A stretch of 64,000 nucleotides of DNA from Acidihalobacter yilgarnensis. GTDB lineage: Bacteria; Pseudomonadota; Gammaproteobacteria; DSM-5130; Acidihalobacteraceae. The stretch spans positions 1,392,501 to 1,456,500 of the forward strand of contig NZ_CP017415.1 in NCBI RefSeq assembly GCF_001753245.1, given 5' to 3'. The first letter of the stretch is position 1. Every line of letters begins with the position of its first letter. A model generated the notes under the pieces. That model was not told where the DNA came from. It searched no databases and worked only from the letters and a program-made list of their open reading frames with translations. The translations under genes and the position numbers were made by a program. This document shows, one piece after another, positions 48,260 to 58,682 of the stretch.

Positions 48260-49350
48260 CTCAGCAGTCAGTAATATAGGCAACACTTGGATGCCTGAAG
48301 AACGAGCGGATCAGATTCGGCTGCGCGGCCATGTTGGCGAGTTGAAACTGGATGCGATCTTCCAGACGTTCTCCGGCCCGCAACGGCCGGCGGGCATTGC
48401 CCGTGCGCTTGGCGTGGCTCCAGACCAGCTCGTCGGGATTGAGTTCGGGGGCATAGCCGGGCAGGAAGTGCAACGTCAACTTGCCCTTTGACTTGGCGAC
48501 ATACGTTTTGACGGCGCGGGTCTTGTGCGCAGGCAGATTATCGAGGATCAGATGCAGCGGCTTGCGTCGGCCGCGCATCAGGCGCTGCAGGAAGGTCACG
48601 AACAGGTCGCCGTTCAAGCCGCCTTTGTAAGTCGCGAACCAGAACGCCCCCTTGGCACTGACCGCCGAGGCGGCACTGATCCCTTGCCGTTGTCCGGGCA
48701 CCGAGACGACCGGCGTGTGTCCTTTGGCGCCCCAGGTCTTGCCGTGCACCGAGTCGGCACGAAAACCTGACTCGTCCCAAAAATAGATATCGGCCTTGTC
48801 CCGCTTGGCTTGGCGAGCAATCGCCGGATAGGTTTCCCGTTGCCAGCGCTCGATCGCGTCAGGGTCCCTCTGATACGCACGCTGGAGTGGCTTTTGCGCA
48901 GTCAAGCCGACCCGCGCCAGCAACGCGCCCACTGAGGCCAAGCTCAGCGAAACGCCCAATCGCTGTGCGATCAGTTCGCGCACGATCTGGCGTGTCCATA
49001 AACCGAAGTCGAAGCCATACTGCCGCGGGTTCTTGCCGTTGACCCACCGGAACACTTGCCGTCCTTGGGCATCGGTCAACTTCCGGCGCCGCCCGGGGGC
49101 CCGCCGCAACTGCAGGGCCCGCTTGCCTTGGCCGCGCCCGCGCGCCTTCAGCCGTACCTTGTACGCCCAAGTCCGGTGCATCCCGAACGACGCCGAGACC
49201 GCTGCCGGCGATTCGCCTTCCACCATCCGCTCCAGCGCCATGAAGCGCATCGCTTCCAGCGTCTCGCGGGTCAATGTCCGTCCATCGTTCTTCATACCCA
49301 ATTATGACCAAAGTCGACGCCATTTGTTCCCTAATCTACTGACTTATGAG
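48260..49350 (-). mobile_element. IS630-family element
   Basis: Imperfect inverted ends CTCAGCAGTCAGTAATATAG (48260 on) and, complementary from 49350, CTCATAAGTCAGTAGATTAG. TA dinucleotides flank both sides (48258-48259, 49351-49352), the target duplicated by IS630/Tc1-mariner elements. One intact transposase gene. Confidence 0.82.
48261..49295 (-). CDS. IS630-family transposase
   Basis: A 344-residue Tc1/mariner-type DDE enzyme: VSASFGMHRTWAYKVRLKAR is the helix-turn-helix region, ADIYFWDESGFRADSVHGKT has the first Asp with Glu, LHLILDNLPAHKTRAVKTYV the second Asp, and FLPGYAPELNPDELVWSHAK the C-terminal glutamate. The frame is intact, so this copy could be active. The codon at 49295 is the first ATG; a TTG six bases earlier is an alternative. 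Confidence 0.9.
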   Translation of the reverse strand: MKNDGRTLTRETLEAMRFMALERMVEGESPAAVSASFGMHRTWAYKVRLKARGRGQGKRALQLRRAPGRRRKLTDAQGRQVFRWVNGKNPRQYGFDFGLWTRQIVRELIAQRLGVSLSLASVGALLARVGLTAQKPLQRAYQRDPDAIERWQRETYPAIARQAKRDKADIYFWDESGFRADSVHGKTWGAKGHTPVVSVPGQRQGISAASAVSAKGAFWFATYKGGLNGDLFVTFLQRLMRGRRKPLHLILDNLPAHKTRAVKTYVAKSKGKLTLHFLPGYAPELNPDELVWSHAKRTGNARRPLRAGERLEDRIQFQLANMAAQPNLIRSFFRHPSVAYITDC

Positions 49351-50328: not shown

Positions 50329-50784
50329 CTAGAGATCGCCGGTTTCAATCAAGGATATCAATGTTGATATCTGAGCGCCGTAGTTGGTTTCTCGTTCGAT
50401 GTCGATAATCCTTGAAAAGGTTTTGTACGCGAACATCGAGTCTTCCATCGTTGCTCTTCGCTTGGGATATTTGGGTTTCTTGACTGTATGTACCCCTTCG
50501 GTGAAAAGGATCTTTGCCCGAAGCGCCTCGAAGCTATAGCCGCGCCCAAGACGATTCATCACCCGAATCAGGTTGTTCAGACTTTCCGTATAGGCGTTGG
50601 TGATCGGGTGATCGAAGTAGTTGAAGATCTCCGTGTGCCAGTTACCGATGGCCGTGAGAATCGGCTTGAAGGCATCTCTCATCTCATCGGATAGACTCCC
50701 ACACCAGATCTCATAAGCACTTTCCGCGTCAGGCCGGTTGTCCATATCCCAGATGCCATAAAAAGCTTCCTTATAGACTCGGCA
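50329..50784 (-). pseudogene. C-terminal part of an ISL3-family transposase
   Basis: The peptide RVYKEAFYGIWDMDNRPDAE, NWHTEIFNYFDHPITNAYTE, LNNLIRVMNRLGRGYSFEAL, RAKILFTEGVH is the conserved end of ISL3 transposases. The N-terminal two thirds are missing; the second IS630-type element abuts it near 50790. The remaining terminal repeat starts near 50299. Confidence 0.8.
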
Positions 50785-50790
50785 CGATTA

Positions 50791-51891
50791 ATCCGTGAAC
50801 TTTAAGGTGCGGTGATGTGTCTCATTGGTCATGGAAAAAGAAGACGCCCGCAAGCAGTCGCGAGAAGTACTGCACGAGAGACGCAAGCAAGTCATCCGCC
50901 TGTACCGCAAGGGAATGCCCGTGATGCGAATTGTTGAGCATAGCGGCCTGAGTTGGTATGCCGTGAACGCTGCGATCACCGCTTATTCAACTGCGGGGGC
51001 GGTGGCCCTCAAGCCTGCTGCGCGCGGCAAGAAACAAGGAAGCGGACGCAGATTGAGCGGATCGCAAGAAATGGCTGTACGGCAAATCATTTGCGACAAG
51101 CGGCCGGAACAGCTGAAGATGGAATTTGCGCTGTGGAACCGGGCAGCGGTTATGCAGCTGATTGAGCGCGAATGCGGCATCAAGCTATCTGTACGGGGTG
51201 TTGGCAATTACCTCAAGCGCTGGGGATTCACCCCGCAAAAGCCGATCAAGAAGGCTTACGAGCAACGTCCGGAGGCAGTTCAGAACTGGCTGGAAGAGGA
51301 ATACCCCGCCATCGAGAAACGCGCCAAGACTGAGGGTGCCGAGATTCATTGGGGCGACGAGACGGCGGTGGTGAACACCGATGTACGTGGTCGCAGCTAC
51401 GCACCGGCTGGAAAAACACCGGTGACTTTTGCGGTGGGCGGCACGCGCCAGAAACTGTCGATGATCGCCACCGTGACCAACCAGGGCAAGACGCGCTGGA
51501 TGATTATTGATGAGGCGTTCAATGCGGACAGGCTCATCGAATTTTTGGGTGCTTTGATCAAAGACGCGGGACGCAAAGTGTTTTTGATTCTCGACAATCT
51601 GCGGGTACATCACAGCAAGGTGGTTAAGGCCTGGGTTGCTGATCGCACAGACAAGATCGAGTTGTTTTACCTGCCCAGCTACAGTCCTGAACTGAACCCG
51701 GAGGAGCGGCTCAATGCGGATTTAAAACAAGCGATTTATACAAAAAGTGTCGGCGCGCACCAAAGCCAAACTGAAGGCCGCAACCGCCGAATAGAGGCAG
51801 ACCTTGGAGGGCTCGCCAGAGCGCGTTAAAATGTATTTCCAGGACCCGCGCGTGAAGTATGCCGCTTAATACTATTTGCTGGCCGGATCAA
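50791..51891 (+). mobile_element. Second IS630-family element, decayed
   Basis: The right end GGCCGGATCAA (51881-51891) is followed by TA and equals the end of the MITE at 54963-55131. The left end reads ATCCGTGAACTTTAAGG beside TA at 50789-50790 and seems to have lost its outermost bases, as the MITE arm has TTTATCCGTGATT internally. The transposase gene is broken. Confidence 0.6.
50831..51869 (+). pseudogene. IS630-family transposase with frameshift and stop near its end
   Basis: From ATG 50831 the frame gives VIRLYRKGMPVMRIVEHSGL, WNRAAVMQLIERECGIKLSV, EIHWGDETAVVNTDVRGRSY, KVFLILDNLRVHHSKVVKAW and YLPSYSPELNPEERLNADLK, so all three catalytic acids are present. After that the frame shifts. 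The true C-terminus (ARTKAKLKAATAE, then TLEGSPERVKMYFQDPRVKY) lies in another frame that also has a TAG. The catalytic core is intact but the product would end in about 30 foreign residues. Confidence 0.82.
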
Positions 51892-51892
51892 T

Positions 51893-52340
51893 ACTGACTG
51901 CTGAGTAATGTTCGTTTGCGGCGACCCGGTCCCGCCCTTGCGCCGCGACGGCAGCTTTTCCCACAGGTCGGGATCGTGATCGCGTGCGTCGATGGCGTAG
52001 CGGTGATAGCGCAGTCCACCGTCGGCAGCCGGACGGTAGAATCCCCAGCCTTTGATCCGCGCCCCATGAGAAAATAGGGTCCAGGCTTCGCCGCTGGCCG
52101 GCAGGATAATGCGGTGCCGCGTTCCGCCGTCGATACGGTTGATGCGCAGTGGCCAGAACCGGCGTCGGCTTTCAAACAGGCTGCCAGCCTGCTGACGAAT
52201 TTCGAGATAGACGCCGGAAAGGATCAGCGAACGGGACACGCGCCAGGGGTGGTCATGCAGCCCGCGATCCGGATCGGACGCCAGAAAACGGTGCAGGTAC
52301 CAGGTCTGGCCGAGGAAGCGGCCCAGATAATAACGATGAA
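51893..52340 (-). pseudogene. Fragment of a cupin-like phage/mobile-element protein
   Basis: A minus-strand frame reads YYLGRFLGQTWYLHRFLASD, PDRGLHDHPWRVSRSLILSG, NRIDGGTRHRIILPASGEAW, TLFSHGARIKGWGFYRP. The pattern DPDR-x-LHDHPW, HRI and WTL resembles hypothetical cupin-like proteins found in phages and integrated elements. The N-terminus is replaced by the IS605 right end near 52341 and the C-terminus by the IS630 end at 51891, so only the middle survives. Confidence 0.5.
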
Positions 52341-52500
52341 GTCTCCCACCGCTAAATCCCCGAGGGGTTTGTAGCGGGGGTTTCCTGGGTCAACGACCAG
52401 AGCACACGGGTGTTGCCACCCATGCGACTTACCACGGTCTTACCGGGCGTCGATTGCGTTCCCGCAACCGGTTCGGAGCCTTCCGCCCCTACCTTGTTTC
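52341..52500 (-). ncRNA. Candidate omegaRNA of element 1
   Basis: In IS605-type elements the guide RNA of TnpB is transcribed over the 3' end of tnpB into the right end. Here that region contains the hairpin at about 52349-52376. The guide would be taken from host sequence just left of 52341. Limits are approximate. Confidence 0.4.
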
Positions 52501-53797
52501 GTTTGATCGCACACCGTTTTTTCTCTTTCCGAACACACTTTCCTGACAGCAGTTGCCGGACACCGCGCAGGGCGATGACATTGGCCGCATTGTGGTCAGC
52601 ATGGTCGGTGTTTCCGCAGCGTTGGCAGACGAATTCGGATTGAGAAATCCGATTGTCTGGGTGAACGTGGCCGCAAGCGGCACATTCCTGCGAAGAATAA
52701 AACGGCGGCACTTCGATAACCAGCTTGCCTTGGCGGCGAGCTTTGTATTGCAGATAGATTTTCGTCTGGCCCCATGTTGAGGCCAGAATGGATTTGTTGA
52801 GACCCGACTTGGCAGATGCGCCGTTTTTGATCCAGCGCCCGCGTTCGTCTTGCTTGGGCTTTGCTCGCCTGGTCATGTTCGTGACCTTGAGCGCTTCGAA
52901 CGCAAACAGCTTGTAGCGCGGATCGTTAGCCAACGTGCAGCTTGTTTTATGCGCCACATCGCGGCGCACATCGCCGCCATAGCGCTGATACCGAGCCACC
53001 TTGCGCTTGGCCTGGAACCAACCTGCCGACCCTTTGGTTCGTCGAGCCTGACGCCGCTGCCAGCGTTTTTTGTGGCGTTCTTGTGCTGCAAGTCGTTGCT
53101 TCTGTATGTCGGAGAAGTCGAATTTTTGCAAGTCACTGCCGGCCAACGGCAAAGCCACTCCCCGGTCCAGCCCGACCGTCATGGCTCGCAATTCGGACTC
53201 ATCGAACTGCGTCAGGTAGTCGGTCGTTTCCCTATCCGTCGGCTCAGGCATGCCGTCATCGTAATTGAACGACACATGCCAGCGTCCGGCGTGAATACTA
53301 AGGTGCAGCGAGGCGGGAAGCCGGTATTCCTTGTGTGCTTTAAACGCGATGATCCCGACCGGAAACTTTTGGGTGCCCAAGTGAAGTTGATGGCCGGTGA
53401 TTTCACCCGTTTCCGCATCGACCATGGGTACGAACTCGAACAGCTCCGAGGTGATCCACACGGATTGCTTGCCATGGCGCCGGTGGATGACCGGCCGCCC
53501 GCCCAGCTTGGAGAAATACCGGCCATAGGCTTGCTTCCACAACACTGCGCCGTTGCGTAGTACCACGCTGGGCACGTCGCTGAGCCAAGGTGTGAGTTCC
53601 GTCTTGAACTGGGCGTACTGTTGGTCCATCGGCACGCACTGACCGACATGCTGCAAAGATTTGCATGCAAAACGGCGGAAATACTGATCCTCCCGCACCT
53701 TGGCGTTATAGATGTGTCGCTGGCAGCCAATCCACTGCAACAGGATTTTCTCCTGTGCCTTGGTTGGGTAACAGCGAAAACGATTGCCGATTTGCAT
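52352..53797 (-). CDS. tnpB: TnpB RNA-guided endonuclease of element 1
   Basis: A 481-residue TnpB. The N-terminal RFRCYPTKAQEKILLQWIGC domain is typical. The RuvC residues are the Asp in AMTVGLDRGVALPLAG, the Glu in LFAFEALKVTNM and the Asp in NTDHADHNAANVIALRG. The zinc ribbon is SSQECAACGHVHPDNR with FVCQRCG. All look intact. The C-terminal 60 residues are a basic, poorly conserved tail whose coding sequence probably also serves as omegaRNA. TnpB cuts DNA at the site left after transposon excision, favouring element retention. Confidence 0.9.
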   Translation of the reverse strand: MQIGNRFRCYPTKAQEKILLQWIGCQRHIYNAKVREDQYFRRFACKSLQHVGQCVPMDQQYAQFKTELTPWLSDVPSVVLRNGAVLWKQAYGRYFSKLGGRPVIHRRHGKQSVWITSELFEFVPMVDAETGEITGHQLHLGTQKFPVGIIAFKAHKEYRLPASLHLSIHAGRWHVSFNYDDGMPEPTDRETTDYLTQFDESELRAMTVGLDRGVALPLAGSDLQKFDFSDIQKQRLAAQERHKKRWQRRQARRTKGSAGWFQAKRKVARYQRYGGDVRRDVAHKTSCTLANDPRYKLFAFEALKVTNMTRRAKPKQDERGRWIKNGASAKSGLNKSILASTWGQTKIYLQYKARRQGKLVIEVPPFYSSQECAACGHVHPDNRISQSEFVCQRCGNTDHADHNAANVIALRGVRQLLSGKCVRKEKKRCAIKRNKVGAEGSEPVAGTQSTPGKTVVSRMGGNTRVLWSLTQETPATNPSGI

Positions 53798-53833
53798 AAA
53801 TGATATGCTACCAAAATGCGTTAAGACGCAAGT

Positions 53834-54289
53834 ATGGAAAACAACAATAAATCAAGCTCGCACGCAGTTTTTAACATTAAGCTGCATATCGTTTTCGTGA
53901 CGAAGTATCGCCGCAAGACGCTGGCGCCGGAGCTGCTGGATTACCTCAAGGAGGCGTTTGCCGATTGCCTCACCGCCTGGCGCTGCAAGCTGGTGGAGTT
54001 TGGCGGCGAGCCGGATCACGTCCACTTGCTGATCGACATCCATCCGGCGCTGGATATTTCGGTGCTGATCAACAATCTCAAGACCGCAAGCGCCCGCCGT
54101 GCCCGGAACCGCTTTGCCGAACATCTCGCGCCGTTCTACAAAAAACCGCTGTTCTGGCACCGTGCCTACTTCGTCGGCAGTGTCGGGAGAGCTACGCTTG
54201 AGACGGTTCGCGCTTATGTAGATGCGCAGGGAACCGAAGAACATGCCAGAAAAGCAAAGGCCAGGTCAAAAACCAAACCGTCCGCTTGA
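53834..54289 (+). CDS. tnpA: TnpA, IS200/IS605 Y1 transposase, element 1
   Basis: A 151-residue HUH single-strand transposase: FNIKLHIVFVTKYRRKTLAP, the metal-binding GEPDHVHLLIDIHPA and the nucleophile tyrosine in LETVRAYVDAQGTEE. It excises and inserts the element as a single-stranded circle. Intact; divergent from tnpB with 36 bases between the starts. Confidence 0.92.
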   Translation: MENNNKSSSHAVFNIKLHIVFVTKYRRKTLAPELLDYLKEAFADCLTAWRCKLVEFGGEPDHVHLLIDIHPALDISVLINNLKTASARRARNRFAEHLAPFYKKPLFWHRAYFVGSVGRATLETVRAYVDAQGTEEHARKAKARSKTKPSA

Positions 54290-54473
54290 CCCCCTCTTGG
54301 CGCAAGGCTGGTTTTGTACTCGCCCAAGAGGGGGAATGCGCGGACAGGTGTTCAAGATAAGGCTCGCCTTGATCTCCCCGGATGGCACGGAAGGGCAGAC
54401 GGCTCGCGACGGCAAGATACAGCCAGCGGCCGAAACCGCGATCGGGGCGTCATCGCGCCAGTGTTGCGCCGGA

Positions 54474-54794
54474 TCAGCCATGGCGTTTGTCCCGATGGGC
54501 TTCCGCCCAGGCGATGATTTCCACGGCTTTCCAGCGCAGCAAGCCGCGTGGCTTGCCGGTCTGCGCGGTCGCGGTCTTGGCCTGTGCGGACGGAATGCGT
54601 ATCGGCGCGGGAAAGCCTGGCAGGGCCGCGTAGCGTTCGGCTACCTGCCTGCGGCCCACCTTGAGATAGGCCGCCACCTCGTCGGGTCCCCACAGGTCGA
54701 TGCGCAACGGCACGCGCGGCTCGATCAGTCCGGCGACGGCCGCCGCGAGCGCCTGGATATCGACGTTGGTTGATTCGGTTCCCATGTCCAGCAT
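54474..54794 (-). CDS. AlpA/excisionase-like helix-turn-helix protein
   Basis: A 106-residue protein with a MerR-like winged helix in residues 30-100: LWGPDEVAAYLKVGRRQVAE and RYAALPGFPAPIRIP, followed by LLRWKAVEIIAWAEAHRDKR. This layout (entry motif, FPxPIR, R-W-K-xxEI-W) is that of AlpA-type regulators that drive excision or expression in integrative elements. The start at 54794 follows AAGGATC. It is the last gene of the minus-strand element module. Confidence 0.72.
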   Translation of the reverse strand: MLDMGTESTNVDIQALAAAVAGLIEPRVPLRIDLWGPDEVAAYLKVGRRQVAERYAALPGFPAPIRIPSAQAKTATAQTGKPRGLLRWKAVEIIAWAEAHRDKRHG

Positions 54795-55160
54795 GATCCG
54801 ATCCTTTCAACAAGCTGTTGCGCCCGAATAACCGCGAAATAAGGCCTTTTTCGCGAAAGAGCGCACAATGAAATGGAAGTCGGAATCCAGTTTCCGCGAT
54901 CTCAAGGAAACGCAAGTGGATAGCGCAAAGCGCAACAGGAACAACCGCAGGGCGGGGGATTATTGATCCGGCCTGATTTATCCGTGATTCATGCTGCCTA
55001 TTTTGCACTGCGTATTGGAAGGCCTTTTCCACCCGTTCGGACTATTTTTCCCACCGACCGCATGTGCTCAGTTGCAACAGCTTTCAACTTGGCCGCAGTG
55101 CGCAAATCACGGATAAATCAGGCCGGATCAATAGCGAGGGGGCGGAGGTTGGTACGGAAC
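54795..55160. other. Intergenic region holding a MITE
   Basis: No gene is evident in these 366 bases. The right half is the MITE (54963-55131) and the left part should contain the promoter of the excisionase-like gene. Confidence 0.5.
54963..55131. mobile_element. MITE with 27-bp perfect inverted ends, IS630-related
   Basis: The left arm begins TTGATCCGGCCTGATTTATC and continues to CGTGATT (54963-54989); the right arm is its exact complement (55105-55131). TA flanks both ends (54961-54962 and 55132-55133), extending the mirror symmetry. The 169-bp element has no coding capacity. Its outer 11 bases GGCCGGATCAA equal the right end of the IS630 element at 50791-51891, which probably mobilised it. 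Confidence 0.88.
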
Positions 55161-55985
55161 TCAAATATCGATCGTTTTCAGCGCGTCAAAACCACCCGGC
55201 ACGGCCTCGCCCGGGTATCCGGCCTGGTTGCTGAGCAGACGGGTTTGGTTATGCCGGATATCGACATTCGCGTGCGTATGGCCCCATATCCAGACATCGG
55301 CATCGGGCAGCAGATGTGATAGTTCCGATGCGAAGCCGCCCGTCGACAACCCGAGCGGGTATCCTGGGTGCATGGAGGCATCGATGCACGGGGCATGATG
55401 CGTGATGACCACGGTTTTCCCATCGAAAGGCTGCGTGAGCATCGTTTCGAGAAAGTAACGCGCCTCGACGTGTTTCTCGAGGGCCTGAGCGGCATCGAAG
55501 GGAACTCGGCCCTGCGGCGTATCGATTGAAATCCTGCGCGAATCGTTCAGATAGCGGTTGGCCACCGCCATTGCGTCTGCTCGCGTCTCGCCTGCAGCAG
55601 CGTCGACGCCGGCCGCAAAATCGCTCCAGAGCGTGGTTCCAAGAAAACGCACGCCGTTCATAACCAGCGCTTCATCATGAAGGACATAAATGGGTGTGCC
55701 CGAGAAAAACCTATAAAGATTCTCAAGCGCTTCGTGGTATTCGCAGCCGTAAAACTCGTGGTTCCCGGGCACATACACAAAGGGACGATCAGCCGCCCGC
55801 GCGACATTGCCGAGCCAGCGCATCAGATCCGGACGTGCAGCGCTAAGGATATCGCCCGCCAGGACGACCAGATCGGCGTCATCGGCAACGCGCAATGGAC
55901 TGTCGGCCCCATCCGGAACCGGCTTTGGCCGGTCGGCTCGCAGCGCAATCTCAAGGTGCAGATCCGAGAGTACCTGGACGCGCAT
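55161..55985 (-). CDS. Metallophosphoesterase
   Basis: A 274-residue calcineurin-like phosphoesterase with all five metal-binding blocks: VQVLSDLHLEIA, VVLAGDILSAA, FVYVPGNHEFYGCEYHEALE, TVVITHHAPCID and VWIWGHTHANVDIR. It hydrolyses a phosphate ester; this form is frequent on plasmids, phages and integrative elements, where the substrate is unknown. Four bases upstream is the end of a small membrane-protein gene, so they belong to one operon. Confidence 0.87.
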   Translation of the reverse strand: MRVQVLSDLHLEIALRADRPKPVPDGADSPLRVADDADLVVLAGDILSAARPDLMRWLGNVARAADRPFVYVPGNHEFYGCEYHEALENLYRFFSGTPIYVLHDEALVMNGVRFLGTTLWSDFAAGVDAAAGETRADAMAVANRYLNDSRRISIDTPQGRVPFDAAQALEKHVEARYFLETMLTQPFDGKTVVITHHAPCIDASMHPGYPLGLSTGGFASELSHLLPDADVWIWGHTHANVDIRHNQTRLLSNQAGYPGEAVPGGFDALKTIDI

Positions 55986-55989
55986 GGAA

Positions 55990-56202
55990 TCAGATCAGGA
56001 AGAAAGCGGCAATGCCAGCGCAAAAGGCCAGGGCCGCGCTCAGCGTCGCTATCAGGAGGTCCAGTTCGCGCTGCCGTTCTTCGGACCAAATCCCGGCGTT
56101 ATGCTGTTTCTGTGGCTTGGGAGCAGGCATCGGGCCTGCGATCATCTGACGCTCCAGTGCCGGCAGGGTTCTGTTGCGTGCATCGGTTTTCTGCTCAGCC
56201 AT
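55990..56202 (-). CDS. Small hypothetical membrane protein
   Basis: A 70-residue protein starting MAEQKTDARNRTLPALERQM. It has a soluble charged N-terminus (WSEERQRELDLLIATLSAAL) and one C-terminal hydrophobic segment (LIATLSAALAFCAGIAAFFL). The start overlaps the end of the preceding gene by 8 bases. Family not recognised; it belongs to the element operon. Confidence 0.55.
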   Translation of the reverse strand: MAEQKTDARNRTLPALERQMIAGPMPAPKPQKQHNAGIWSEERQRELDLLIATLSAALAFCAGIAAFFLI

Positions 56203-56410
56203 CAATATAACCTCTTTCCATGACCGCGCGCGCCAACAGACCGGCATCGTGCGGTGTCCACAAATCAAAAGCATAACGCTCGGCCAGCACATCGCAGGCC
56301 GCCCGAAACAAGCCGTCCCAGGGATTGAAGCGTTCCTCGACCAACGAAACCAGTGTCTCCATCTCTTGGTCGCTCAGTCCATCGAAGAACAGGGATCGCG
56401 GATCGATCAT
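56195..56410 (-). CDS. Hypothetical protein of the mobile-element operon
   Basis: A 71-residue acidic protein (IDPRSLFFDGLSDQEMETLV, SLVEERFNPWDGLFRAACDV, LAERYAFDLWTPHDAGLLAR). The family is not recognised. The right end of IS605 element 2 lies about 50 bases upstream and has separated it from the rest of its operon, so it may now lack a promoter. Confidence 0.55.
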   Translation of the reverse strand: MIDPRSLFFDGLSDQEMETLVSLVEERFNPWDGLFRAACDVLAERYAFDLWTPHDAGLLARAVMERGYIDG

Positions 56411-56458
56411 GGCGCGCCCGTATCGTTCAGACCGGCGATCTCGATGGCAGTCGAGATT

Positions 56459-56640
56459 TTGACATCCTCCCCGCCCTTGGCCTTCGGCCACCGCTTGCGC
56501 GGGAAGGGCGGAGATTCCTACGGCGCTCAGGCGTGGCATTGAACCGCTCCTGAGTCGCTTCGGTGGGTTCCTGCTGCTGGCGGCATTACGGCACCGCTCA
56601 CTTCACAGGCGAACCGGGCGTGTCCCGCCCTTAGCACATT
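56459..56640 (-). ncRNA. Candidate omegaRNA of element 2
   Basis: The 3' end of tnpB and the right end form nested hairpins, for example AAGGGCGG with CCGCCCTT and inner TGGCC-TTC-GGCCA. The RNA end would read GGGAGGATGTCAA, then a guide copied from the flank, starting AATCTCGACTGCCATCG. Ends are inferred from comparison with the copies near 62.9 and 63.8 kb. Confidence 0.45.
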
Positions 56641-57747
56641 GATCGCGCCGACGACATCGGCGTTGTCCTCGAAGCCGCATTCGACGCAGAGGAATTGCGC
56701 CTGCGTCTGGCGGTTGTCTGCCGAGACATGGCCGCAGCACGGACAAGTCCGACTGGTGTACTGCGGCGGCACGGCAACGAGCCACCCGCCGCTCCACGCC
56801 AGCTTGTAGTCCAGTTGGCGGCGGAACTCGAACCAGCCCTGATCGAGGATGGATTTGTTCAGGCCAGACTTGGCCCGAACATTCCTGCCCGGTTTTTCGG
56901 TGTTACCAGCCGCCGACGTGGACATGTTCCGTACCTGCAAGTCCTCGATACACACCATCGCGTGGTTTTGGCTGATCGCGGTCGAGGTCTTGTGCAGGAA
57001 GTCGCGGCGGGCGTTGCCGATCCGGGAATGAATGCGCTGGACTCGGGCCTTGGCCTTCTTCCAGTTGTTGCTGAACTTCTGTTTGCGGCTCATGGCCTGC
57101 TGCGCTTTGCGCAACCTGTCCTGATGCCGCTTGAAGCTGTTGAGTGGCGCGAAGAACGTGCCGTCCGAGAGCGTGGCGAACCGCGCCACGCCCATGTCGA
57201 TGCCAACCGCATCGCCGGTCGGAATGGGCCGCTCGACCTCGCGCGCGGTCTGGATCGACACAAACCACTTGCCGCAGGACTGGCTCACGGTGACGTTCTT
57301 CACCGCGCCGAGCACATCCCGGCTGTTGCGGTAGCGCAGCCATCCCAGCTTGGGCAGGAACACGCGGCTATTGACCTGATCGAGCTTGATCTGTTTCGGG
57401 TCGGGGTAGCGGAAACTGTCGCCCTGTCCCTTTTTCTTGAAACGCGGGAAATCGGCCCGTTTGGCAAAGAAGTTGGAATAGGCCCGTTCCAAGTCCTTGA
57501 GCGTCTGTTGCAGCGGGTGAATCGGCGCATCGGAGAGCCAGGGCGTTTCCGCGCCGTTGCGCCAGGCGGTGAGTTCCTTGCACAGGCCCGCATAGCCGAG
57601 CTTCTTCTCGCCTTGCTCGTAGCGTTCTTTCTGCAACGCCAGCGCCTTGTTGAATACGAACCGGCACGATCCGGCGAAGCGGCGCATCTGGCGCTGCTGC
57701 TCGCCGGTCGGCATCAGTTCGTATTTGAAGGCCTGGAGACGCTGCAT
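56527..57747 (-). CDS. tnpB: TnpB RNA-guided endonuclease of element 2
   Basis: A 406-residue TnpB. RuvC residues are the Asp in AVGIDMGVARFATL, the Glu in MVCIEDLQVRNM and the Asp in GFEDNADVVGAINVL; the zinc ribbon is TSRTCPCCGHVSADNR with FLCVEC. All catalytic positions are present and the frame is complete, so it could be active. It differs strongly from the TnpB at 52352 and belongs to a second IS605 lineage, shared with the copy at the right edge of the window. Confidence 0.9.
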   Translation of the reverse strand: MQRLQAFKYELMPTGEQQRQMRRFAGSCRFVFNKALALQKERYEQGEKKLGYAGLCKELTAWRNGAETPWLSDAPIHPLQQTLKDLERAYSNFFAKRADFPRFKKKGQGDSFRYPDPKQIKLDQVNSRVFLPKLGWLRYRNSRDVLGAVKNVTVSQSCGKWFVSIQTAREVERPIPTGDAVGIDMGVARFATLSDGTFFAPLNSFKRHQDRLRKAQQAMSRKQKFSNNWKKAKARVQRIHSRIGNARRDFLHKTSTAISQNHAMVCIEDLQVRNMSTSAAGNTEKPGRNVRAKSGLNKSILDQGWFEFRRQLDYKLAWSGGWLVAVPPQYTSRTCPCCGHVSADNRQTQAQFLCVECGFEDNADVVGAINVLRAGHARFACEVSGAVMPPAAGTHRSDSGAVQCHA

Positions 57748-57770
57748 GTCCTGAATTAGACTCTTGGTCT

Positions 57771-58184
57771 ATGAGCGATAACAATGATATTCGGCGCGGA
57801 CGACACTGCGTATTCAAGATGCACGTTCACTTGGTCTTTGTGGCGAAGTATCGCCGCAAAGTGTTTGATGGCGACGCCATCGACCGGTTGCGCATCATCT
57901 TCGCCAAGACCTGCGACGACTTCGAGGCGCAACTGATCGAGATGGACGGCGAGGACGATCATGTGCATCTGCTGGTCGAGTACCCGCCCAAGGTCGCCGT
58001 CTCCCATCTCGTGAACAGCCTCAAGGGCGTTTCCAGCCGCCTGCTGCGCAAGGAGCGACCCGATATCCAGAAACGCTACTGGCGTGGCGTTCTCTGGTCG
58101 CCGTCTTACTTCGCCTCATCTTGCGGTGGAGCGCCAATCTCCATCGTGCGGCAGTACATCGAACAGCAGCAGACGCCACACTAA
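57771..58184 (+). CDS. tnpA: TnpA, IS200/IS605 Y1 transposase, element 2
   Basis: A 137-residue HUH transposase: FKMHVHLVFVAKYRRKVFDG, the metal site DGEDDHVHLLVEYPP and the nucleophile tyrosine in SIVRQYIEQQQTPH. Intact; 23 bases separate its start from that of tnpB, so both are driven from one divergent promoter region. Confidence 0.92.
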   Translation: MSDNNDIRRGRHCVFKMHVHLVFVAKYRRKVFDGDAIDRLRIIFAKTCDDFEAQLIEMDGEDDHVHLLVEYPPKVAVSHLVNSLKGVSSRLLRKERPDIQKRYWRGVLWSPSYFASSCGGAPISIVRQYIEQQQTPH

Positions 58185-58211
58185 AACTCAAGGACGGCTA
58201 CGCCGTCCGCG

Positions 58212-58682
58212 CTATCCTTCCCCGCCCTGAACGGCGGGGCTTGTCGCGCACCGGGTCAGCTGCACCAGGAATATGGCGACGCCCCAGGCGGCCAACGGAA
58301 ATCCCAGCCAGAGATGCGCGCCGGCGATGGCGCAATTCGGCGCAGCGCCAGCGATCTGCAGGGGGCATACGGGGGCACCGGAGGCAACCTCGCTATATTG
58401 AAATCGCGCGGACAGCAGTCCGCCCAGGGCGCCCACAAAAGCCACGCGGCTGCACCAGGCGCAAGGTTTTGCGAAAAACCCGCGGTACCCCAGCCCGACG
58501 CCGATCGCCAGCAGGCAGCCGCGCTGCACCCAGCACAGGGAACAGGGCTGCCATCCCACGAACCATTCCATTGAAAAGGCCGCGAGCAAGGCCATAAAGC
58601 CGATTCCAAATCCAAACAAAGCCAGTAGCCGGGATGTGTCGAATGCGCGCCGAGGCGATACCAGTCCTACATGAAATCTCAT
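58212..58682 (-). CDS. dsbB: DsbB-like disulfide bond formation protein
   Basis: A 156-residue inner-membrane protein with four hydrophobic segments and the first redox pair in WQPCSLCWVQRGCLLAIGVG. A second periplasmic pair may be the cysteines of SGAPVCPLQIAGAAPNCAIA. It reoxidises DsbA-type thiol oxidases. Such proteins are common in conjugative elements, where pilus proteins need disulfides. The last ten or so residues are encoded by the IS605 left end, so the natural C-terminus is lost. Confidence 0.83.
   Translation of the reverse strand: MRFHVGLVSPRRAFDTSRLLALFGFGIGFMALLAAFSMEWFVGWQPCSLCWVQRGCLLAIGVGLGYRGFFAKPCAWCSRVAFVGALGGLLSARFQYSEVASGAPVCPLQIAGAAPNCAIAGAHLWLGFPLAAWGVAIFLVQLTRCATSPAVQGGEG

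Follow-up and report, generated by a model that had tools for sequence, protein, structure and literature searches.

A 169-bp element bordered by two right-end-like arms, very probably a MITE of the IS630 family, in Acidihalobacter yilgarnensis

Bacterial MITEs are described as short elements with terminal inverted repeats (TIRs), many of them with TA ends, that are thought to derive from insertion sequences (ISs) and to be mobilized by ISs in trans (PMC10969869, PMC2229807). In these accounts, RUP and IS630-Spn1 form the best supported case of trans mobilization (PMC10969869, PMC2229807). The element that we analyzed here resembles RUP, which occurs in Streptococcus pneumoniae with IS630-Spn1, as that element is described in PMC2229807: both are short and gene-less, have TIRs, target TA, and possess arms like those of IS630-family ISs. 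Trans mobilization of RUP was likewise proposed from the resemblance of the arms (PMC2229807), as it is here. Our element occupies positions 54963..55131 (plus strand) of the window, a stretch of 64,000 nucleotides from A. yilgarnensis, and is bordered by two copies of an IS630 right end. On the sequence comparisons reported below, we give a probability of about 0.93 to the reading that it is a non-autonomous type I MITE of the IS630 family.

We first describe the structure of the element. An inverted-repeat search paired positions 54961-54989 with 55105-55133, two 29-nt arms that are 100% complementary when the flanking TAs are counted. Between the TAs the element is 169 bp long, and its left arm (54963..54989, plus strand) and right arm (55105..55131, minus strand) are perfect inverted repeats over 27/27 bp. 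The two TA copies lie at 54961..54962 and 55132..55133. Within 300 nt, simulations of the window (n = 20, first-order Markov) yielded perfect inverted repeats of at most 11-14 nt, compared with 29 nt at the element. An earlier note on this DNA had described a TA-flanked element of 169 bp whose terminal inverted repeats are perfect over 27 bp, and the repeat search and simulations bear this out. Its statement that the element has no coding capacity also holds: translation of the minus strand gave a decayed remnant of a transposase C-terminus and no protein. The only listed ORF starting inside the element (54963-55319, TTG start, 118 aa) extends past its end and looks mechanical.

The decayed remnant belongs to a 142-bp part (54961..55102, minus strand, TA included) that, by alignment and translation, is a relic of the right end of an IS630 element, where the transposase gene ends. 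This part aligned at 73-82% identity to the right ends of the IS630 elements L014, L039, L040, L046, L081, L083, and L098, and an IS630 right end was likewise the third hit, at 73% over 131 bp, in the initial search. Identical positions numbered 116/141 with L083 (Thiobacillus sp. Sulfur_bin.2), 114/141 with L040 (Thiobacillus MAG_95), and 103/141 with L014, which lies in the same chromosome as the element. When the arms were compared with the ends of IS630 relatives, a check that the earlier note had proposed, the whole arm was found to be shared; with its TA, each arm agreed at 29/29 positions with the L040 and L083 right ends. The right end of L014 differed from the arm at 4/29 positions, and its left end, which is of another type, differed from the right arm of the element at 8/29 (both counted by eye). 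In the autonomous elements of this IS630 clade that were read here, the left end (TATAGACTCGG or close) is distinct from the right one (TATTGATCCGG). Because both arms match the L040 and L083 right ends completely while the L014 left end differs, the element has two right ends, its right arm being a second right-end copy and not an IS left end. In a tree of 13 right ends over 142 columns, both known copies of the element (the second is described below) fell outside the group formed by L014, L098, and the window-type copies (support, 81; 75 with L039 included). They were placed beside L081, L040, L046, and L083 with support of 42-43, and since this support is low, the tree does not decide the exact parent.

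From these comparisons, we infer that the source was an IS630 element whose clade is today represented in Thiobacillus, Sulfuriferula, and other betaproteobacteria. It would have been cut to ~142 bp of its right end, and the terminal 29 bp, present a second time in inverted orientation, would have been attached to this piece. As is the case for the mechanism of the family, the two right ends may then be recognized in trans by an IS630 transposase, which would move the element to a TA that becomes duplicated.

The earlier note had considered the element to be probably mobilized by the neighboring IS630 copy, 3 kb away at 50774..51891 (plus strand; TA at 50772-50773 and 51892-51893). Its assignment of the element to the IS630 type stands, given the second copy, the empty site, and the presence of the arm in IS630 relatives, but the role given to the neighbor does not. 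The two do share the TA target and the outer 13 bp: the outer GGCCGGATCAA-TA reported as common to the element and the right end at 51891 is real, and TATTGATCCGGCC reads inward from 51893 (minus strand) as well as at both ends of the element. However, exact identity ends there. Over the 142-bp relic, the neighboring copy was identical at only 79/137 positions (58%), below L014 (103/141) and below each of six IS630 ends from other genomes, among them that of Thiobacillus (116/141). Moreover, its transposase gene carries a frameshift and a stop near the C-terminus, even though the copy nearly matches L014 over ~400 bp at its start, where the N-terminal part of the transposase is encoded, and 307 aa of the protein show 92% identity to the L014 transposase. 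On right-end identity and the broken transposase, we rejected this copy as the parent; it is probably not the source of the element, and a role as parent or mobilizer is improbable.

The neighboring copy itself is a mosaic, L014-like on the left and L017-like on the right. Compared with L014, it was identical at 287/288 positions over the first three alignment blocks and at 100/100 in the fourth (to ~400 bp), beyond which identity dropped to 73-93% per block. Compared with L017, another copy in the same genome, identity was 96-99% in 4/7 blocks where both are present, the others giving 31/40, 89/100, and 31/34. The neighboring copy abuts an ISL3-type transposase fragment at 50329-50745 and shares its left flank with copy L013. 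A second, distant IS630-like transposase (DDE_3) at 48261-49301 is 33% identical to that of L014.

A better candidate for a resident helper is L014 (chromosome positions 2144284-2145408), which has both ends and an open reading frame for a 347-aa transposase matching NCBIfam NF033545 with 238 bits over 298 of 299 model positions. By these features it would be the likeliest helper, on the assumption that its transposase acts on two right ends.

Next, we examined the site of the element in other genomes. A search with the phosphoesterase gene to the right of the element showed two other genomes of the genus. In one of them (G001), the encoded protein is 95% identical; the other (G002) gave no match to the gene and is therefore uninformative on the site. 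In locus L109 of G001, window positions 54962 and 55132 align to the adjacent positions 2363 and 2364 with one shared TA, and the flanks are collinear with the window at 95.6% (54350-54962) and 94.2% (55132-56458) identity. A single TA in collinear sequence thus marks the precise empty site in the congener, and the 169 bp at 54963 are an insertion at a TA. The empty site that the earlier note had suggested looking for is thus present: G001 has a single TA where the window has TA-169 bp-TA. The perfect arms of the window copy fit a recent insertion without proving one. In a DNA search of 114 genomes, including that of the window, with the best three candidates per genome scored, L014 had no match in G001 or G002; its other matches were 84% over 805 bp in G025 and 74% over 343 bp in G004. 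Since L014 had no match in the two congeners, the IS and the MITE both look like newcomers to this lineage, unless the congeners have lost them.

The stretch around the element collects insertions. At 52336-54349, the window contains an IS200/IS605-type element (Y1 transposase and TnpB-like OrfB) where G001 is uninterrupted, the alignment joining at position 2977 of L109; by eye, this element seems to interrupt a gene that G001 has intact. A further insertion relative to G001 occupies 56459-58254 (positions 1027/1028 of L109 are adjacent), and its ORFs, named by eye, resemble a second pair of TnpB-like protein and Y1 transposase.

A whole-chromosome search detected a second full copy of the element at G000:C1:1765667-1765834, 92% identical to the first and 318 kb from it, so that the further copy that the earlier note had proposed to look for, by its arm and TA flanks, was found in the same chromosome. 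These two were the only full copies found in the genome. The arms of copy 2 have 1 and 2 mismatches to the 29-mer, and it is flanked by TG instead of TA on the left and by TA on the right. Both copies have the same internal junction and a common 1-nt deletion, and this deletion is present in 0/11 IS rows of the alignment. Because the copies share the junction and a deletion that is absent from the 11 IS ends, both most likely come from one founding MITE.

This second copy bears on another explanation, that the element is a degraded IS630 copy that lost its middle in place and never moved as a small element. The ~142 bp of IS end retained with the decayed 3' end of the transposase gene would fit such a history. 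However, the same junction and the same 1-nt deletion recur at another site, and the two sites have the element in common but not the flanks: the match covered only positions 802-972 of a 1701-nt query, which gives no indication that copy 2 belongs to a larger duplicated stretch. Furthermore, two right ends are not the product of a simple internal deletion. Degradation in place is accordingly very improbable. Since copy 2 lies elsewhere with the same junction and deletion, the small element itself has moved, as the MITE reading holds. Within the 142-bp part, the two copies differ at 14/141 positions. This divergence exceeds that of the flanks between the two species and suggests a founding MITE that predates the insertion at 54963.

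When the flanks of copy 2 are joined, its site reads as the TAG stop codon of a gene for an AAA-like ATPase (Pfam AAA_22, E = 1.6e-5, slightly short of the cut-off). No empty site for copy 2 turned up in G001-G004: the matches obtained there, one in G001, three in G002, and one in G004, cover only DNA to the right of the copy, and G003 gave none.

We then considered the neighboring genes. The window copy lies between two minus-strand genes, a calcineurin-like phosphoesterase gene (55161..55985), whose stop codon is 27 bp past the right TA, and downstream a 106-aa helix-turn-helix (HTH)-like gene (54474..54794), whose ATG is 168 bp from the element. The earlier note had called the latter gene excisionase-like. 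HTH-like matches were indeed obtained, but those behind the excisionase label are weak, with 0.016 for an "excisionase and transcriptional regulator" family and 0.046 for HTH_17 (under the cut-off); an HMM match to PHROG 4996, of unknown function, reached 2.3e-12, and nothing was found in NCBIfam. The 168 bp between the element and the ATG fall in the 54350-54962 stretch that is 95.6% identical in G001, which has no element, so the insertion would leave a promoter close to the HTH gene intact. The region 54700-55300 showed no promoter-like site, and no terminator-like site was detected within the element; one terminator-like site outside it (54896-54881, minus strand) is within chance expectation. 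The predicted transcript fold of the element was -82.8 kcal/mol on the minus strand and -79.7 kcal/mol on the plus strand (z = -9.8 and -9.4), a stability that follows from the perfect arms. A search of Rfam gave no match at E up to 1, and a known RNA family was ruled out on this basis. By analogy, a post-transcriptional effect on the neighbors is possible: in Correia elements, RNase III is described as cutting at such arms (PMC10969869). That the element is instead a conserved operator or RNA regulator of the HTH gene, and not mobile, is extremely unlikely, because despite its very stable predicted hairpin it is absent from the same place in a congener with 94-96% identical flanks, has no Rfam match, promoter-like site, or internal terminator-like site, and owes the hairpin to its perfect arms.

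Outside the genome of the window, no full-length copy was found among 274 relatives or among 369 genomes of the class (overlapping sets, best two to three candidates per genome scored), nor in plasmid and phage collections, from which records near this genome may be missing. Viral contigs gave no match to the arm pattern. Two short matches, of 33 bp at 88% in G160 and of about 50 bp at 81% in G090, are regarded as chance, and a reading of the G090 stretch showed no element. Four chromosome sites with CGTCCTTATTTATCCGAGA, which has three mismatches to the inner arm, were taken as unrelated; they lie in a ~1.3-kb repeat (L127-L130) whose four copies are 99.9-100% identical and for which no inverted partner was found.

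The contigs of other genomes were also scanned with TTGATCCGGCCNNATTTATCCG, yielding 87 stretches with 90 arms; the scan needs one intact right end, so the frequency of left-left elements is not readable from it, and records near the genome of the window may be missing. Most arms (83/90) follow TA, three are cut at that point, and four follow another dinucleotide. A second end lies between TAs 93-159 bp away from 62/90 arms, with the outer end scored as left-type in 31 and right-type in 31 (11-mer, up to one substitution); two Sideroxydans elements were counted as right-type according to their sequences, whereas a looser rule scored them as left-type. The other 28 arms comprise 13 IS630 right ends (by a motif test), nine arms cut by the end of the record, three unpaired arms, and three without TA that are probably chance. 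Candidatus Nitrotoga CP45 contributed 28 paired arms of 118-bp elements and three more that are cut, and Thiobacillus C20 contributed 25 arms, 24 of 110 bp and one of 108 bp. These are high-copy MITE-like families, represented by L024, L026, and similar loci. Because the matches outside the genome of the window cover at most the first 143-144 bp of the element (IS ends) or its arms, none of these elements is the 169-bp MITE. Right-end outer sequence occurs at both ends of the element over the whole arm in the window family and over its outer part in elements of Thiobacillus, Sideroxydans, and a Pseudomonas MAG. It is a tentative and rather doubtful idea that the right end is the better transposase substrate and that its doubling makes the MITE more mobile than its parent.

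As far as sequence can test them, the features of MITEs are found in the window element, and for this reason we file it under the known kind. It is short (MITEs being <200 bp in PMC2229807), encodes no protein, and has TIRs; it has TA on both sides with a single TA in the empty site; it occurs in more than one dispersed copy, with two full copies 318 kb apart; and it shares sequence with autonomous ISs beyond the TIRs, in line with the type I definition in PMC10969869. It lacks the pairing of a left with a right end that a simple internal deletion of the parent would give, a pairing that MITEs need not have, and the two right ends are its one unusual trait. Literature searches found no paper on this element, with poor coverage of subscription journals, and a narrow search found none on two right ends, which is not evidence of absence. 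The element is clearly a further case of a type of mobile element that is already known, and it leaves existing knowledge about MITEs unchanged. What it adds is a bacterial MITE whose insertion can be set against the unoccupied site of a congener, whose parent end can be traced, and whose chromosome also encodes a candidate helper transposase. The right end of a single IS630 clade is used by several MITE-like families, most of them in genomes of betaproteobacteria.

Compared with RUP, of 107 bp and 108 copies in the description of PMC2229807, the window MITE is longer (169 bp), has two copies, retains a long relic of the transposase 3' end, and carries two right ends. It also resembles the Correia/NEMIS elements of Neisseria, as these are described in PMC2229807 and PMC10969869, in a size of about 100-200 bp, TA ends, TIRs of about 24 bp, and a stable RNA hairpin, but differs from them in its low copy number, in the identifiable related IS, and in that no promoter-like site was found in it. 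The 118-bp Candidatus Nitrotoga CP45 and 110-bp Thiobacillus C20 families have the right-end sequence TATTGATCCGGCC..ATTTATCCG in common with the window MITE, whereas their interiors and lengths are different. Paired Nitrotoga copies consist of one right and one left end, and Thiobacillus copies consist of a right end and an end that is right-type in its outer part only.
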